Positions 3,723 to 31,913 of a DNA stretch of 43,592 nucleotides are shown one piece after another. The DNA lies in contig JALVST010000046.1 of the NCBI GenBank assembly GCA_027024205.1, forward strand, positions 1-43,592. Reading direction: 5' to 3'. The position numbers were made by a program, and so were the translations under genes. The stretch comes from Flavobacteriales bacterium (lineage in GTDB: Bacteria; Bacteroidota; Bacteroidia; Flavobacteriales; Flavobacteriaceae). Below the pieces are notes generated by a model. The model saw nothing but the letters and a program-made list of their open reading frames with translations, was not told where the DNA came from and ran no database searches. Numbering within the stretch: position 1 is the first letter of the stretch; each line of letters starts with the position of its first letter.

Positions 3723-6700
3723 ATGAAAAAACAAATTAATCTCAGGTTTCTGTTTATACTATTTGGAATTATCAGTAGTATAAACGGTTTTGCACAGATA
3801 GCCGTTAGCGGTACGGTTACCGATTCACACGGCGAAGTTTTACCGGGTGTTGAAATTATAGTTGTAGGGACACAAAACGGTACAGTTACCGACTTTGATG
3901 GTCATTACACCATCAAAGCCAACAAAGGTGACAAAATTAAAGCGAGTTACATTGGCATGACTTCACAGACCAAAACCGTTACAGGTCCCCGTTTGGATTT
4001 TGTCCTCAAAGATGATGCACTCGGATTGGACGAAGTGGTTGTAACCGCTCAAAGCGGTATTGTTACCAAAAAACAACTGGGTAGTGTAATTCATTCAGTA
4101 AAAATGTCCGAAGTAGGAAATCGTCCGGTTACCAATGCAGCCGAAGCTTTACAAGGTATTATTCCGGGCGCCCAAATTATGAGAAATAACGGGGCTGCCG
4201 CACCGAGTATTTCCATCCGTTTGCGAGGCCCTTCCACTATTTTGGGAAGTTCCGAACCCTTGATAATGATAGATGGGGTCATTATTAACAATCAGGAAAG
4301 AGCCGGCGTAGGGACGGGAGGTAGTTCCGATCCTTTGTCAGATATAGATATGTCAGATATAGACCATATAGAAATTTTAAAAGGGCCGGCTGCTTCTGCC
4401 ATGTACGGTTCCTTGGCAAGTAACGGTATTATCCAGATTTTTACCAAAAAACCCAAAAACGGCCAACCTAAAATAACCGTTACTTCCGGATTTAACATTA
4501 ACAAAATCCGTAAATACAAACCTTATAACAAAGTATTATTGAAATGGCAAAATAACGGAGGCGTTTTGGAGCCTGTTCCCATTGATAAACGTTATGATTA
4601 TCAAAGCTACATTTTCAGAACAGGTTTCGGAGCCAGCACCAATGTTAATGTAAGTGGCGGTACCGATTATACAACATATTCCATTGGCGGCTCTTATCTG
4701 AGCAACGAAGGAATCGTCAGAAATTCTAATTATGAAAGAAAAAATCTGAATTTAAAACTTGACCAAAAAATTAATGACAAATTAAGGTTTAATGTAAGTG
4801 TTTTATTTTCAAATAACGATACCAAAGAGATACCTTACGGTTTAGGTTATCACAATCCTTTATCTTCCATCTTATTTTTAGACAACTCAAAAGAATTGGT
4901 CAACGGTGATGCTTACAATCCGGTAGGTTGGATGGGAAATCCTTATGAAAGTATCGATATTATCGATGCAAAATTAAAAGTGAATAGAATTATTCCGTCT
5001 TTCAATATTCATTATAATCCGTTTGAAAATCTGAACATCGATTATGTTTTCGGATATGACCATGCTTCCGAAAACAGCAAATATTTCATTCCGCAAGGTA
5101 GTGTTAACGAACCCCACGGCATATTGCAATTTACCGAAAACGCTTATGAAAATTACAATTCTCACATTAGAGCCAATTACAATTATAATATTACTGACGG
5201 CATCAAAGCTTCTACCGGAGCAGGATATCAATACATGTATGACAAAAAGAAATACAATATTCAAAGTAAAAAGAACCTATCTGTCTTTCCCAACTTGCAA
5301 AATATGGACGGATCTAACGACATAAAAGCAACCAGTGCGTTGTATGAGTATGCTATTTGGGGAACGTGGGTTCAACAACATTTTAATTTTTACGACAAAT
5401 TTCATTTAACCTTAGGCGGCCGTTGGGACCAAGCCTCTACATTTGGTAATGATGTTCAAAAATTCTATCCCAAAGTCAGCGGGGCATTAATTTTATCCGA
5501 CTTTGATTTTTGGAAAAATAATCTAGGCAAAATCTTTAATTCCTTTAAACTGAGAGGAGCTTGGGGAGAAGCCGGAAACATGAGTGTATTGACAAGCAGT
5601 TCATATATCAATGTAAAAGAAGGTAGTTTACTGTCTCCTTCCTCATACTTGGGACAAACCGCTTATATCTTATCATCGATAGACGGAAATAAAAAAATCA
5701 GACCGGAGGTTACCAAAGAATTGGAATTCGGTTTTGATGCTTCCCTCTTGGATGGCCGTTTGGGAATTGAATTTACAAAATATCATCAAAATGTTTATGA
5801 TTTGGTACTTGCCAAAGCCATGGCACTATCATCAGGATATGTAAAAAAAGTGGAAAATGTCGGCACCTTGACCAATGATGGTATTGAAGTAACATTGAGT
5901 GGAGTGCCGGTAAAAACCAAAACATTTACTTGGAACAGTAGTATTAATTTCTCTACCAATAAAAACGTAGTATCCGATATTGAAGGCGGATATATCAGTT
6001 TGAATGTATTTGGTAATGACAATGCCATTTTGGCTAACGGTTACCCTATGACCACCTTCTACGGCACCTTTTATGCCACGGACGAAAACGGAAATTGGGT
6101 TCTCGATGCCAATGGCAATCCACAACGGGCAAAAGGAATTATGATTGACGAAGACGGTGACGGTTTCCCTGAAAGTTATGAGCAACAATTTGACAGTAAC
6201 GGGCAACCGACCGGTAATATCTTAAAAAAAGTATTGGGTAAAACCAGCCCCGATTATATAGTTTCGTTTAACAATACCTTTAAATACAAAAACTTTGATT
6301 TGAATGTAAACGTGGAAGCCGTTCAAGGTTATAATGTATTGGATTGGGATAAAAGAATGGCTTATTCACTTTCGTTGAGTTCTTTATCTCTATTTACCGG
6401 TTGGGAATTTGCCGGTGAGGAATTGGAATATAACAAAAGAGGCTATTACGGCAATCGTTTCAGAATTTACGAATCATTTGTAGAAGACGGCTCATTTGTC
6501 AAATTGAGAAATGTATCATTATCATATAACTGGAAAAAACCGGTTAAAGGAATCGATAATATGAGATTTACCGTAAGCGGTTCAAATCTTATTTCTTGGG
6601 ACAGCTATTGGGGATATGACCCGGAAGTTAACGCTTGGGGTAAATCCAATGTCGTCAGAGCGGAAGATTTTGCCAATATACCGATTCCACGGGTTTATTC

Positions 6701-25562: not shown

Positions 25563-27932
25563 ATGAAAAAGCTATTGCTTTTTACCCTCTTACTATTTGT
25601 GCAGTGGACGCAAGCACAGCAAGAAATATTTGTTTCGGGTCAGGTTTTGGATTCTATTTCGGGACAAACTTTGGAATCTTGTACTATCGGATTTTTTAAT
25701 ACTAATAAAGAATTGGTTACCGGTACAACAACTGACCGTAAAGGATTTTTCGAAATAGGATTGCTTCCCGAGCAATATCAGATAGTTTTGTATTATATAG
25801 GATACCAAAAGAAGACGATTTCTATAACTGTTCAACAAAACAATCAGTTTTTAGGTACCTTTAAACTTTCCCCTGATAAAAATGTTTTAGAATCAGTAGA
25901 AGTGAAAGCCAAGAACAAAGCTTTTAAAGTAGATAAAGATGTGTTTGTTGTTACTCGAAAAATGAAAGCAGCTGCTGCCAATACTAATGATGTACTTGAC
26001 AAAATTCAAGGAGTTAGGTATGACCGTTACAACAATCAAATAAAAGTGGACGGACAGACCAATATTAAAATTTTGGTAGATGGTTTGGAAAAAGACCCTG
26101 CTTATATCCAAAATCTCAATCCGGACCGTATTAAAAAAGTAGAAATCATACGTGACCCGGCGGGCAGATACGCTTTGGACGGTTATACGGCTGTTATTAA
26201 TATTATTTTGAAGAAAAATTATACCGGATTGGAACTTAATCTGTCGTCACAAACTATTTGGGATACCGATGCTACCGACAAATCATACCTGATGCCTATG
26301 GCTTATACTTACAGCGGATTAACATATACTTACAACAAAATCAATATTTATACACAATTTAATGTATATGCTAATAATTTTAATTTTCCAACCACAACGG
26401 TTTATAAATACCAAAATGGTAATCTTATACAAGAATTAACCGGCAATACCAACAATATGCTCAAAAAAGTTTTAGGGGATCGTTTGGTATTCGGGGTGGA
26501 TTATTATATCAATCCACGTCATACTTTGAGCTTTGAAACCGGAATTAACAATATTTTTAATCCCATTGACCACACTGATATACAATATAATGTTATCGAA
26601 ACTAATGTTACAGGCACGGACACTCAATATCAACTCTCAAATTGGATTGACGGTAGTTCAAAATCTCACAATCAATCGGTTTTTTACATCGGAAAGCTTA
26701 ATGACCAAGATGAACTGCATATGGATGCCGATTTTTCTTTTTATAAAGATAATTCAGACAACCGTTTTTTTACCAATAAAGTTTTAGATAGGCAAGAACA
26801 ATCCGTTAGCAGCAGAAGCAGTTTTAGATACAATGCAGATTATACCCGTCAACTTAACGAGCATAGTTCTTTGCAAGTGGGATATGGTTTCTATCATCAC
26901 AAAAGTACCAATGATTTAATAACAAAAATGGGGAATCAGACCGGTACTCAAAATTTTGTTTTTAGCGATACCCGGCATAAACTCTTTGCTTATTATGCGT
27001 ATAAATTTAATAAAGATTGGTCAGTCAAAAGCGGAATTGCCAGTGAAATCAGCCGACCCGAGGTTCCGGGGGCAACCCCTACTTATCTGATTTACCAACC
27101 CTATTTGGATATCAAATACAAATTTTCAAAAAACATTGCTATAAAATTAAAGTATCGAACTCAAAGCCGTTATCCCGGTTTGTCACAAGCCAATCCCAAT
27201 ACCATTTATATCAATCCGCAGACTGTAAGCAAGGGGAATACGGCATTAAAACCGGCAGTGACACACCAATTGGGTTTACGTATTAACTTTTTTGGCGGTA
27301 GTTTGTTTGCCGAACCATATTATCATTTTTCAAACAATTATATAGGTGAAATTGCCCGGCTTCGCAATGATGGGCTTATCGAACAAACCTATAAAAACAT
27401 TGGTCATTACAGGCATTACGGCATCAAAGGAAATGTGGCGATGCCTTTTAGTAAAAAGATTTTTTGGCAGACTAATTTTGATATTTTCCACAGTAGTATC
27501 AAGTATCATAATAATACCAATACTTTTAACGATTACAGTTTGGAAAGTAATTTGGTTTATGTCAATCGAGCCAAAGGTCTCAATTCCGGATTTATATACC
27601 AGCACGGCATGAACAAACATATCAGTCCGCAAGGTTATCACAAGTGGAATAATGATTTTTGGGGTTTTATAATTCAAAAATCTTTTTTTAAAAGGAAGTT
27701 AAATTTGATGTTGTTGTATATGTTGCCTGTAGATTTTGGCGTGGATTATGTTCAAGAAGAATACACCAAAACTTTACAATATGAAAGTTTAACCAAATAT
27801 GATATTCATTTACTTAAAAATGTTTTGGTGTTCCGGTTAAATTATCGCTTCAATAATGGTAAAGCCACTCGCAAGGTTAAAAAGAATATTGAGGATAACA
27901 GTCCGAAAAAGGAGAAAAAGGGGATTTTTTAA
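25563..27932 (+). CDS. Outer membrane beta-barrel protein, TonB-receptor-like
   Basis: A 789-residue protein with a signal peptide (cleavage near TQAQ, residue 19), a carboxypeptidase-regulatory-like beta domain (about 22-105, with FVSGQVLDSISGQTLES and YYIGYQKKTISI), a plug-like region (about 125-215: VLDKIQGVRYDRYNNQIKVDGQ, ILVDGLEKDP, EIIRDPAGRYALDGYTAVINI) and a long barrel-forming C-terminal part. This fits the outer-membrane beta-barrel family seen beside TonB-dependent receptors in Bacteroidota. No clear TonB box is seen and it ends with a charged tail. Its neighbour 67 bp downstream is a hybrid regulator, which may sense its ligand; the ligand is unknown. Confidence 0.85.
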   Translation: MKKLLLFTLLLFVQWTQAQQEIFVSGQVLDSISGQTLESCTIGFFNTNKELVTGTTTDRKGFFEIGLLPEQYQIVLYYIGYQKKTISITVQQNNQFLGTFKLSPDKNVLESVEVKAKNKAFKVDKDVFVVTRKMKAAAANTNDVLDKIQGVRYDRYNNQIKVDGQTNIKILVDGLEKDPAYIQNLNPDRIKKVEIIRDPAGRYALDGYTAVINIILKKNYTGLELNLSSQTIWDTDATDKSYLMPMAYTYSGLTYTYNKINIYTQFNVYANNFNFPTTTVYKYQNGNLIQELTGNTNNMLKKVLGDRLVFGVDYYINPRHTLSFETGINNIFNPIDHTDIQYNVIETNVTGTDTQYQLSNWIDGSSKSHNQSVFYIGKLNDQDELHMDADFSFYKDNSDNRFFTNKVLDRQEQSVSSRSSFRYNADYTRQLNEHSSLQVGYGFYHHKSTNDLITKMGNQTGTQNFVFSDTRHKLFAYYAYKFNKDWSVKSGIASEISRPEVPGATPTYLIYQPYLDIKYKFSKNIAIKLKYRTQSRYPGLSQANPNTIYINPQTVSKGNTALKPAVTHQLGLRINFFGGSLFAEPYYHFSNNYIGEIARLRNDGLIEQTYKNIGHYRHYGIKGNVAMPFSKKIFWQTNFDIFHSSIKYHNNTNTFNDYSLESNLVYVNRAKGLNSGFIYQHGMNKHISPQGYHKWNNDFWGFIIQKSFFKRKLNLMLLYMLPVDFGVDYVQEEYTKTLQYESLTKYDIHLLKNVLVFRLNYRFNNGKATRKVKKNIEDNSPKKEKKGIF

Positions 27933-27999: not shown

Positions 28000-30675
28000 A
28001 TGAGAAAAACAATTTCGTTTTTTATTCTTACGTGTAACTTATTTAATGCTAATTATTTAGGAAATTATAACCGATTGTATGCTCAAAAAAAACATACGCA
28101 AACCCCAATCACTCTTGTGGATAGTTTAAGCATTTCAGAACAGAAATACATTTCTACACACAATTGGCATAAATTAATAAGTTTATATTACCGGACCGCC
28201 CAAAAATATTATAAGTCAAAAAATTATGATTTGGCGGTGTCGTACTATTTAAAGATAGATTCGATATCAAAACGATTTGGCATTTTATCGGATACCATTG
28301 TTAAAGCCATACGGGACAGGAGTGAAATTTCCAAACTACAATTTACACCCGATGCCATGGATATGGCAGAAGACTTATCCAGGGAAGCACTTCAAAAAGC
28401 TGTACAATTGCAAAATCCGGATTTAATATATGATGTCAAGTTATTGTTATCGGAAATTGTATTATTAAAGAGACAACATGATGAAGCTCTTAAATTATTA
28501 AAAGAGACAGAAAAATATTTTAGAAAAAAGGATGATGCTTTACACATGGCCCGTGTTTTTTTGTTGTATATGATGTATTACGAGCATGTTTTAAAAGATT
28601 ATAAAAAGACGGACTCGGTTCTTTATGCCGGCATAAGATACCTACAATCAAAGGGATTGCCGGGAAAATTAGCTGATATGCATATTTTTTACGCCAACTT
28701 TTTAAAAAACAAATTGCATGATAATAAAAAAGCTTTGCGCCATTATCTTATAGCTGACAGTTTATTTTACAGTCATGATAGTGTGCCGAAATTACATCAC
28801 ATTTATCTTTTGGAAGGTTTATCCGATCTTTACGAAAAATCAGGCCAATACAAAAAAGCCCTTTATTATAACAAAAAAGCTTATGAATTAAGACAAGAAT
28901 TGTCAAAAAAACAGAATAGAGAATTATCCCGCCGTCTGGAAACCCGTTATCAAGCCAAAGTCAAACAAAATCGTTTGAAACTTGAAGTGCAACAAAACCG
29001 GTTGTTGGAAAGACAAAAATATTTTCTTGTTATTTTGACTGTTCTACTTGTTTTACTATTCTTTCTGATGTTTTATCAATATAAAAACCGTCAAAAGATT
29101 ATTGAAAAACTACAGCAACTGGACAAAGCCAAATCCGATTTTTTTGCCAATATTTCCCACGAATTCCGGACGCCTTTAACCCTTATAATCGGTCCGGTCA
29201 AACAACGGTTAAAAAAAGGAAATTTGTCAAATAAAGATTTGGATCTATTAGAAAATATTCGACATAATGCAGAAAATTTATTGGAATTGGTAAACCGTAT
29301 TCTCGAACTTGTAAAATTAGATTCCGGTAAACGTAAACTCAAGGTTTCTAACATTGATGCCGGTGATTTTTTAAAAACAATTGCTTATAATTTTGAGTCT
29401 TTGGCCATTCAAAAAAATATCGATTATACAATTGACAACTCTTGTGAACATAAATTTGTATGGTTGGATAAAGAAGTGTTACAACAGATTGCGAACAATT
29501 TACTTTCCAATTCGTTTAAATATACCCGTGCAGGCGGTAAAGTCATGTTTAAATCGTATTGCAAAAACGGAAAGTTATTTCTAGAGATAAAAAATACAGG
29601 TAAAATCCTGAACCGGGAAGATTTGAATAAAATATTTGAACGTTTTTATCAAAACGACATACATTCGGAAGGAATAGGTTTAGGTCTGTCGATTGTAAAG
29701 CAGATGGTACAATTACATAAAGGAAAAATAAGAGTTGAGTCGGGAAATAACGGTTGGACGATTTTTCAAGTGGTAATACCCGTTCAAAAAGAAATTTATA
29801 AACCGGATGAGATATCAAACATGACCGGCCAAAACAAAGCAGGAGTCTCCAAGGCATCCCGTGGTAAGCCTGTTACCTATTACGAAGATTGTCCAATTAA
29901 AAAATCCGATGATCCGTTACTTTTGGTTATTGAGGATAACGATGCCGTCAGGGAATATATCAGTAGTGTATTTAACAACTGTTTTAAAGTGATTACGGCC
30001 AAAAACGGGTCGGAAGGCATTACCCGGGCACTTGAATTAATTCCGGATATTGTTATCAGCGATGTAATGATGCCGGATATAGATGGAATTGAAGTTACCC
30101 GTAAGCTTAAATCCGATGAAAAAACCAATCATATTCCGGTAATTTTATTAACGGCAAAAGCCGGTGAAGAAAACAAAATCAAAGGATTGAGTGCCGGAGC
30201 CGACGATTATATTGAAAAACCTTTTAATGAAGACATTTTAAAGCTAAAAGTAACCAATCTGTTGGAGAGACGTAGAAAAACCAAAGAAAAAATATTAAAA
30301 CAACACACCTATACCGGTAATATTCCCGGCAATATTCCGGACAGGGATAAGAAATTTTTTGAACATTTAAAACAAGTAGTAGAAAAACATATAACGGATC
30401 CTAATTTTAATGCCGTTATTTTTGCAGAAATCATGGGTATGAGTCGTATGCAATTACATCGCAAGTTAAAAGCTCTGACCGGAAAATCTTCAACCCAATT
30501 CATCAGGATACAACGTCTGAATTTTGCAGCCCGGATGTTACGGGAAACCAGTGCCAACATCTCTGAAATTGCCTATTTGTCTGGTTTTAACGATCCGGCT
30601 TATTTTAACAGATGCTTCAAAAAACAGTTTGGACAAACCCCAAAAGAATTCAAACAAAACAATCCGAAAACTTAA
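28000..30675 (+). CDS. TPR-containing hybrid histidine kinase/response regulator with AraC-type output
   Basis: An 891-residue one-protein signalling system. Order: signal-like N terminus, a TPR-type helical sensor region (about 40-320, for example SGQYKKALYYNKKAYELR), a membrane helix (about 338-358), a HisKA domain with the phospho-acceptor His387 in SHEFRTPLTLIIGP, an ATPase domain (NNLLSNSFKYT, GIGLGLSIVKQM), a receiver domain (about 640-755, Asp688 in SDVMMPDIDG) and a C-terminal AraC helix-turn-helix (about 795-888: SRMQLHRKLKALTGKSSTQFIR and IAYLSGFNDPAYFNRCFKKQFG). The sensor is not the beta-propeller type of Bacteroides glycan regulators. All phosphotransfer residues look intact. It sits between an outer-membrane protein gene and a secreted-protein gene, its likely targets. 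Confidence 0.93.
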   Translation: MRKTISFFILTCNLFNANYLGNYNRLYAQKKHTQTPITLVDSLSISEQKYISTHNWHKLISLYYRTAQKYYKSKNYDLAVSYYLKIDSISKRFGILSDTIVKAIRDRSEISKLQFTPDAMDMAEDLSREALQKAVQLQNPDLIYDVKLLLSEIVLLKRQHDEALKLLKETEKYFRKKDDALHMARVFLLYMMYYEHVLKDYKKTDSVLYAGIRYLQSKGLPGKLADMHIFYANFLKNKLHDNKKALRHYLIADSLFYSHDSVPKLHHIYLLEGLSDLYEKSGQYKKALYYNKKAYELRQELSKKQNRELSRRLETRYQAKVKQNRLKLEVQQNRLLERQKYFLVILTVLLVLLFFLMFYQYKNRQKIIEKLQQLDKAKSDFFANISHEFRTPLTLIIGPVKQRLKKGNLSNKDLDLLENIRHNAENLLELVNRILELVKLDSGKRKLKVSNIDAGDFLKTIAYNFESLAIQKNIDYTIDNSCEHKFVWLDKEVLQQIANNLLSNSFKYTRAGGKVMFKSYCKNGKLFLEIKNTGKILNREDLNKIFERFYQNDIHSEGIGLGLSIVKQMVQLHKGKIRVESGNNGWTIFQVVIPVQKEIYKPDEISNMTGQNKAGVSKASRGKPVTYYEDCPIKKSDDPLLLVIEDNDAVREYISSVFNNCFKVITAKNGSEGITRALELIPDIVISDVMMPDIDGIEVTRKLKSDEKTNHIPVILLTAKAGEENKIKGLSAGADDYIEKPFNEDILKLKVTNLLERRRKTKEKILKQHTYTGNIPGNIPDRDKKFFEHLKQVVEKHITDPNFNAVIFAEIMGMSRMQLHRKLKALTGKSSTQFIRIQRLNFAARMLRETSANISEIAYLSGFNDPAYFNRCFKKQFGQTPKEFKQNNPKT

Positions 30676-30700: not shown

Positions 30701-30736
30701 GTTACGATTTTACAAATTTTAGTTACATTTTTACAA
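30701..30736 (+). promoter_or_regulatory. Candidate AraC-type binding site: direct repeats 21 bp apart
   Basis: GTTACGATTTTACAA (30701-30715) and GTTACATTTTTACAA (30722-30736) agree at 13 of 15 positions, with starts 21 bp apart, two helical turns. They end 21 bp before the -7 element of the next gene, and this follows the gene for an AraC-type regulator. Confidence 0.45.
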
Positions 30737-30757
30737 TACCTCATTTATTTCAGGATA

Positions 30758-30765
30758 TAATTTTG
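30758..30765 (+). promoter_or_regulatory. -7 promoter element for the T9SS cargo gene
   Basis: TAATTTTG matches TAnnTTTG, 29 bp before the ATG at 30795. There is no TTG at the -33 position, which fits activator dependence. Confidence 0.5.
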
Positions 30766-30794: not shown

Positions 30795-31913
30795 ATGAAA
30801 AGAATTATCTATGCATTTATCTTATTATGGAGTTTTACCTTCATAAAAGCTCAGGACAAAATTTATGTCCACACGGCAACATCCTCAAATATCTCAGGTC
30901 ATATTACTTATATAGACCATCCCGATTTAAACAACCATCCAAATGCAGGTATCGTATTTTGTCATGTTTGGAATCCCAACGGTATGAGTTCTGCTTATAA
31001 CAATAATGTAGATGGTTTGTGGTATAATTCATCAGCAGGAAAATGGACAATTTACAACGAAGATTTTACACCGATGGTTGATGGGGCACATTTTTTTATA
31101 TATATCGCTTCCAACCCGGCTGATGTAATTGTTCATACTGCTACAGCATCTAACACATCCGGGTATTATACAGCAATTGATGATCCGGATTTTAACGGTA
31201 ATAACCCAGGACCTTTTGCCGTTTTTTCACACTATTGGAATCCTCACAGTGTTTATAATACTAAAATTGATGGTTTTGACTATTATTCAGGACACAGGGT
31301 CATTTATAATGAGGACATTACAAGTAACATATCTGTTGGTACCTCATACAAAATTCTTAAAAAACAAGGTAGTGTAAATACGTTTACTCACACCGCAACC
31401 GCATCAAATATATATAATAATTATACTTTGATTGACCATCCCGATTTAAACAACAATCCCACTGCCACTTTTGTTTTTAATCATTATTACGGTGTAAACG
31501 GCACTTCGACCCAAACAAACATTCCTTATAAAATCGGAACTTTTTATTCTACTTCTTTTAACAAATGGGGTATCTACATTGAAGACACATCTGTTTCATT
31601 TCCTGTTGGAGCAGCATTTGACATTATCATGGCACCACAAGATACTTCTTCGGTTGATGAAGCGTTAGCTAATCCTGAAAATATAAAATTGTATCCTAAT
31701 CCTGTAAATTCCATTGCAACAATAGCTGCTGACCAAGCTGTTTCTCATATCAGCATTGTGAATTTGCTAGGGCAAAAAGTAGGAGAATATTCTTATAAAG
31801 ACAATCAAAAACAAGTGGAGATTTCTGTGTCCGACTTGTCAAGTGGAACTTATACCGTAAATGTACAAACAAAAACCGGCGCCACACAAGTTTTGAAATT
31901 AGTAAAAAAATAG
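30795..31913 (+). CDS. Secreted T9SS cargo with three ~80-residue repeats
   Basis: A 372-residue protein with an N-terminal signal peptide (KRIIYAFILLWSFTFIKAQ, cut after KAQ) and a C-terminal type IX sorting-type domain of about 75 residues (YPNPVNS, ISIVNLLGQKVGEY, LSSGTYTVNVQTKTG, VLKLVKK), so it should be exported and then secreted or surface-anchored. Between them are three related repeats, each beginning VHTAT/THTAT-S/A-SN, then YIDHPDLNN-P and an NPxxxY or HYWNP-type segment, ending xIYNED...; they look like a binding domain, but I cannot name its ligand. A GTG at 30765 would add ten residues but lies in the promoter, so the ATG at 30795 is chosen. A terminator follows. Confidence 0.85.
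   Translation: MKRIIYAFILLWSFTFIKAQDKIYVHTATSSNISGHITYIDHPDLNNHPNAGIVFCHVWNPNGMSSAYNNNVDGLWYNSSAGKWTIYNEDFTPMVDGAHFFIYIASNPADVIVHTATASNTSGYYTAIDDPDFNGNNPGPFAVFSHYWNPHSVYNTKIDGFDYYSGHRVIYNEDITSNISVGTSYKILKKQGSVNTFTHTATASNIYNNYTLIDHPDLNNNPTATFVFNHYYGVNGTSTQTNIPYKIGTFYSTSFNKWGIYIEDTSVSFPVGAAFDIIMAPQDTSSVDEALANPENIKLYPNPVNSIATIAADQAVSHISIVNLLGQKVGEYSYKDNQKQVEISVSDLSSGTYTVNVQTKTGATQVLKLVKK

Follow-up and report, generated by a model that had tools for sequence, protein, structure and literature searches.

In this work, a stretch of DNA of 43,592 nucleotides from a Flavobacteriales bacterium was analysed, and the whole of this stretch (contig C46) is called the window. It contains a direct repeat and a promoter-like box between two genes read in the same direction, the first of which encodes a hybrid two-component regulator (HTCS). 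The features of the locus are:

25563..27932, + strand, gene for an OMP_b-brl_3 protein with TonB-plug and CarboxypepD_reg domains, 5' of the HTCS gene
28000..30675, + strand, HTCS gene (891 aa: N-terminal region, HisKA, HATPase_c, receiver, AraC-type HTH)
30701..30715, + strand, distal half-site GTTACGATTTTACAA, from the printed sequence and the repeat scan
30722..30736, + strand, proximal half-site GTTACATTTTTACAA, from the printed sequence and the repeat scan
30758..30765, + strand, -7-like box TAATTTTG (TAnnTTTG), offset by 36 bp from the first base of the proximal half-site
30795..31913, + strand, predicted target gene (372 aa: three DUF7452 stretches and a T9SS type A sorting domain)

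In the regulator, the Pfam cut-offs were exceeded by HisKA, HATPase_c, Response_reg and HTH_18. A single polypeptide thus carries the histidine kinase, the receiver and the AraC-type HTH, which makes it a hybrid two-component protein. The best solved relative of its HTH part is chain 12aw_A, a "hybrid two-component system protein" (E 5.5e-19). In the N-terminal region, a TPR_12 match reached 25.4 bits, which is under the cut-off of 30.1; the strongest hydrophobic segment of the protein lies at about 341-360, and the N-terminus appears hydrophobic by eye. A Reg_prop/Y_Y_Y sensor domain was not found in the HTCS with Pfam. Its two flanking genes encode the OMP_b-brl_3/TonB-plug protein and the DUF7452/T9SS protein, with no adjoining susC/susD pair. 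These are not the features of a canonical glycan-sensing HTCS of polysaccharide-utilisation loci. A gene similar by eye to 25563-27932 stands at the same position in the congener G008. The target starts 29 bases beyond the box, and its C-terminal sorting domain (Por_Secre_tail, 53.9 bits with a cut-off of 27; TIGR04183, 44 bits with a cut-off of 23) makes it a predicted T9SS cargo.

The two half-sites form a direct repeat with 13 of 15 positions identical and a start-to-start distance of 21, and it lies between the HTCS gene and the DUF7452/T9SS gene. The second half-site is separated from TAATTTTG by 21 bases (30737-30757), and TTG is absent from 30722-30757 in the printed sequence. The -7 consensus TAnnTTTG is given in the accessible text of PMC7366714, together with a -33 motif which occurs in B. 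thetaiotaomicron and was not identified in F. johnsoniae. The proximal half-site would be expected over the -33 region, where we infer its position relative to the start site. No other direct repeat of 15-mers with at least 13/15 identities stands at a spacing of 21 in the 43.6-kb window, and at spacings of 17-20 and 22-25 there is none. The preliminary description had read these elements correctly, because the repeat spacing, the distance to TAATTTTG and the missing TTG are all seen in the sequence, the AraC-type domain encoded upstream (HTH_18) passes the Pfam cut-off, and the sorting domain of the downstream T9SS gene passes those of both Pfam and NCBIfam. The genome search for the 36-bp pattern which it had proposed was run, and with up to three mismatches the pattern occurs at one place only in the 2.38-Mb genome. 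The spacing of about 21 bp that it ascribed to AraC-type activators had, moreover, been predicted earlier for HTCSs, as the available part of PMC3878776 indicates.

Similar arrangements are known from other bacteria. The window repeat resembles the I1-I2 sites of E. coli AraC, which are also direct half-sites 21 bp apart, with the proximal one beside or over the upstream promoter element. E. coli AraC differs in that it has no receiver domain, another sensor than an HTCS, and a sigma-70 promoter. The MarA/Rob-type activators have the HTH family in common with the window HTCS, although they bind one box as monomers, unlike the paired sites here. The 21-bp architecture of HTCS operators itself is already known, since it was predicted in 2013: in the accessible part of that study, 16 of the 36 B. 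thetaiotaomicron HTCSs have a predicted 21-bp direct-repeat motif, with sites of about 12-16 bp, an average distance of 21 bp, and mostly local targets (Ravcheev et al., 2013; PMC3878776). According to the available text of PMC11253607, HTCS receiver-HTH proteins were gel-shifted on such promoters. The window shares with the B. thetaiotaomicron operators the AraC-type hybrid regulator and the 21-bp direct repeat, a likeness in layout. The B. thetaiotaomicron HTCS loci serve polysaccharide use, whereas a DUF7452/T9SS target is found here, and the TPR-like N-terminal part and the GTTAC cores of the half-sites are further differences. The fixed distance to the -7 box is seen here but is not given for the B. 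thetaiotaomicron operators in the accessible part of PMC3878776. Neither this constant distance nor a target of the DUF7452/T9SS type was found in searches of the open-licence literature.

A second HTCS-DUF7452 pair is present in the same genome on contig C19. Over the matched stretches, its HTCS is about 50% and its DUF7452 protein 63% identical to those of the window. The intergenic region of C19 contains GTTACAAATTAACAA and GTTACAAATTTGACA, 21 bp apart, followed by the box TAGTTTTG at 36 bp from the second GTTAC, as in the window. The GTTAC cores are common to the half-sites of C46 and C19, and the remainder of the half-sites differs. The HTCS of the congener G008 is 74% identical to that of the window, and behind it GTTACATTTTTACTA and GTTACAATTTTACAA stand 21 bp apart within the 78 bp before the contig (C48) ends; the letters of this repeat partly differ from those of the window. 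The pattern GTTAC-N16-GTTAC-N31-TAnnTTTG, searched with up to one mismatch in 13 genomes of the genus, occurs at two places, namely the window and C19, both free of mismatches. The reversed control at the same setting gave one match each in two other genus genomes. The full pattern was not found in 12 of the 13 genomes, the contig of G008 stopping at the repeat.

The repeat was further examined in 108 HTCS 3' flanks of at most 250 bp each, picked by protein similarity only and regardless of repeats. This set comprised 78 of 80 named loci, 28 loci from a search for relatives, C19 and the window; L105 and L107 were left out as duplicates of L035 and L036. Ungapped 15-nt repeats with at least 12/15 identities were counted at spacings of 11-60, with 100 dinucleotide shuffles as the control. 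A spacing of 21 was found in 27 of the 108 flanks and every other spacing in 0-4, while the shuffled flanks gave a mean of 0.64 and a maximum of 4. Among coding-strand GTTAC pairs 6-80 bp apart, 26 have a distance of 21 and one each 11, 32 and 42; on the opposite strand there is one each at 35, 65 and 79, and none at 21. At offset 36 from the second GTTAC stand all nine occurrences of TAnnTTTG and 10 of 11 of TAnnTTTA, and a box is at this offset in 19 of the 26 flanks having the pair at 21 bp. Stacking 24 of these 26 sites gives approximately atGTTACATATGTTATA-nnnTTT-GTTACATATTTCATA, and a preferred TTG upstream of the box was not found in the stack. The pair at 21 bp is missing from the other 82 flanks, the HTCSs of which may use other letters or act on distant targets. 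When another 60 HTCS flanks were scanned (three of them already seen), 21 was again the commonest spacing, with 9 compared with at most 4 elsewhere, although the excess is weaker than in the 108. Thus, the pairing of regulator and target proposed in the preliminary description gains support at the level of the class from the recurrence of the repeat in HTCS 3' flanks, with binding as a prediction. The comparative check named in the preliminary description, which asked for the repeat at related genes, also came out in favour of the pair: the repeat follows the G008 HTCS and stands in the C19 pair at the same distance from the box. The constant phase gives a hint of how, in this phylum, activation may work at promoters with no recognisable -33 element.

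Two minor observations concern single flanks. In L117 and L134, which belong to records titled Ignavibacteriales and thus to MAGs outside Bacteroidota, GTTAC-N16-GTTAC stands behind HTCS genes, and a box at 36 was not found. In L123 (about 5738-5770) and L125 (about 5733-5765), as read from the sequence, the proximal half-site lies within an apparent hairpin with a T run, at which transcription of the HTCS gene may terminate.

The anatomy of the repeat, its spacing, its phase to the -7 box and its recurrence beside HTCS genes are observed directly, and the locus has the layout of an HTCS operator, with a pair of similar sites at 21 bp that stand close to a predicted target promoter and next to an HTCS gene. 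In the very probable reading, the adjacent HTCS would use the window repeat as its operator and activate the DUF7452/T9SS gene from beside the polymerase; binding by the HTCS, activation rather than repression, the signal and the start site are what we infer. On sensing a signal with its N-terminal part, the HTCS would become phosphorylated at its receiver. A pair of AraC-type domains would then occupy the same face of the DNA in head-to-tail orientation, separated by two helical turns, and the proximal one would cover the -33 region adjoining the TAnnTTTG promoter. There it would recruit RNA polymerase, and the DUF7452/T9SS surface protein would be transcribed. In this way, a repeat seen by eye leads to a testable regulator-target pair for an HTCS with a sensor that is not of the glycan type.

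The same operator could also serve a regulator which represses, or which blocks the promoter until it is phosphorylated, since the presumed -33 contact region is overlapped by the proximal half-site and binding there could block the polymerase. We consider this improbable: that the -7 box keeps its phase (in 19 of 26 flanks) suits a protein-protein contact better than blocking, and HTCSs have been described as activators of their own loci. The site could also be that of another AraC-type regulator or HTCS of this genome, for instance the one encoded on C19, or the two paralogues could share it, and the GTTAC cores common to both paralogous sites would make cross-binding possible. However, the repeat adjoins its own HTCS in the window, in C19, in G008 and at many more loci, and outside GTTAC the half-sites of C46 and C19 differ, which makes this reading very improbable. 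The region is AT-rich and similar two-copy repeats occur elsewhere, so that a chance repeat in AT-rich intergenic DNA was considered as well. One spacing and one phase, however, recur across loci far above the shuffles, and a chance origin, rejected by the spacing scan, the shuffles and the reversed-pattern controls, is hardly conceivable.

If the repeat is the operator of the adjacent HTCS, it may be asked whether it goes with the regulator or with the target. In two other genera, DUF7452-T9SS genes occur in L064 (4039-9966) and L065 (4296-8178) with no HTCS among the listed open reading frames, and there is no GTTAC pair anywhere in either locus. The repeat is thus tied to the regulator rather than to the target, and the alternative that it is a property of the DUF7452 gene was rejected on these two loci. 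The pair was also not found at a third DUF7452-T9SS gene, L071. As read by eye, genes resembling those for a LytTR-type sensor kinase and a separate response regulator lie beside or near the L064 and L065 genes.

In the family, the full pattern with no mismatch occurs at 85 places in 65 of 397 genomes, and the reversed control gave one match. Five of the 85 places have one coding-type sequence in common, by reading. When 30 pattern loci were fetched, an HTCS DNA-binding domain was found to end 28-158 bp upstream in 14. Such a domain ending at most 160 bp upstream was not found in the other 16, which include one ending 533 bp upstream, one weak match downstream, and 14 with no HTCS match in the stretch examined. 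Open frames of more than 100 codons run across the site in L080, L083, L085, L086 and L090 of these loci. A genome-wide scan for the version with TAnnTTTA showed no enrichment, with 2 places compared with 3 for the control in 196 genomes of the order. In view of these scans, the pattern serves as a rule beside HTCS genes and not as a blind scan; with this use, the constant -7 phase may help to find HTCS targets in genomes that have no expression data.

The half-site letters may be related to one residue of the first recognition helix. Among 138 non-redundant HTCSs, the position of M817 of the window HTCS is Met in all 48 with a GTTAC pair; another 8 have a G[ATG]AAC pair, and in these it is Thr (6), Ser or Val. 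Of 109 HTCSs taken regardless of repeats, 38 have Met, and 27 of these have the GTTAC pair, which is found in none of the 71 with another residue. In 16 loci found via the small protein described below, GTTAC accompanies 9 of 11 with Met and G[ATG]AAC 4 of 5 with Thr. In the alignment with Rob, M817 falls on the W of SKWHLQRMF, and in MarA a base is contacted by Trp42 of helix 3, according to the available text of PMC3315485. Only two supported independent pairs were available for a tree control, with 0.9 in the same direction and 0 in the opposite one, and the result was not significant. In 57 further HTCSs (the 60 taken by rank minus the three already-seen loci; L216, the same place as L213, was retained), the exact GTTAC pair was absent from all 4 with Met and from all 53 with another residue, so the positive half of the Met code failed. 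One of these four has GTTAC/GATAC, and three have Tyr for His three residues on. A one-residue code from Met817 to GTTAC is thus only a lead. Half-sites of the form G[ATG]AACA at 21 bp constitute a second operator class (L049, L201, L202, L208, L213, L215), the HTCSs of which have the helix SRTQLHRKL.

In other genera, the first open reading frame behind the operator often encodes an unclassified protein of about 45-52 aa with no evident signal peptide, which ends like IYLNINHLEKGxYxLKIxHKNKVIKKTTFKK. Examples, among others, are:

L104:6686-6841, small protein
L108:6071-6223, small protein
L113:5713-5868, small protein
L119:6555-6710, small protein
L125:5806-5964, small protein

With an HMM built from 8 copies picked behind such repeats, it was detected in 21 of the 108 HTCS flanks, namely in 18 of 26 with a GTTAC pair and 3 of 82 with none; minus the 8 building copies and duplicates, the proportions are 10 of 18 and 3 of 82, uncorrected for relatedness. 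The HMM found it in 32 of 149 family genomes (E 1e-5) and in none of the 13 genomes of the window's genus. Thirty loci were fetched via the small protein alone, several of them already seen. An HTCS domain ends 71-305 bp upstream in 27, a repeat of at least 11/15 at spacing 21 is present in 21 (0-4 at other spacings), and a GTTAC pair in 20, 15 of which have the box at 36. Differences in the small-protein gene by codon position (549, 346, 870) are consistent with a coding gene. Compared with the T9SS type A sorting domain, its best scores stay below the cut-offs (Pfam 22.9, cut-off 27; NCBIfam 19.9, cut-off 23), and some of these matches correspond to the distal half of that domain. Its structural model is a hairpin of moderate confidence (pLDDT 79.6), and a PDB fold match was not found at E ≤0.001. 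Neither a GTTACAT motif beside HTCS genes nor an HTCS-linked small protein was found in searches of the open-licence literature, and the family is a concrete new lead. Feedback by the small protein on either the HTCS or secretion is speculative.

Joined together, these observations would describe a rigid promoter module used by many HTCSs across Flavobacteriaceae, which as a whole is a tentative and rather doubtful proposal. It would comprise a GTTACA-type 21-bp repeat, a 31-bp gap and a TAnnTTTG or TAnnTTTA box with no consistent TTG. The choice of half-site would depend largely on a single residue, Met or Thr, at the position of MarA Trp42 in the first recognition helix. The small protein of about 50 aa, with no signal peptide and similar to the distal half of the T9SS sorting domain, would be the first product of many of these promoters and would feed back on the HTCS or on secretion, and in the genus of the window a full T9SS cargo would take its place. 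OmpA-like genes also occur 3' of the operator, in the C19 locus (L062:3858-5186) and in Cochleicola gelatinilyticus (L105:6998-8302). Their proteins are 35% identical over their length, and the operon content is thus partly common to different genera.
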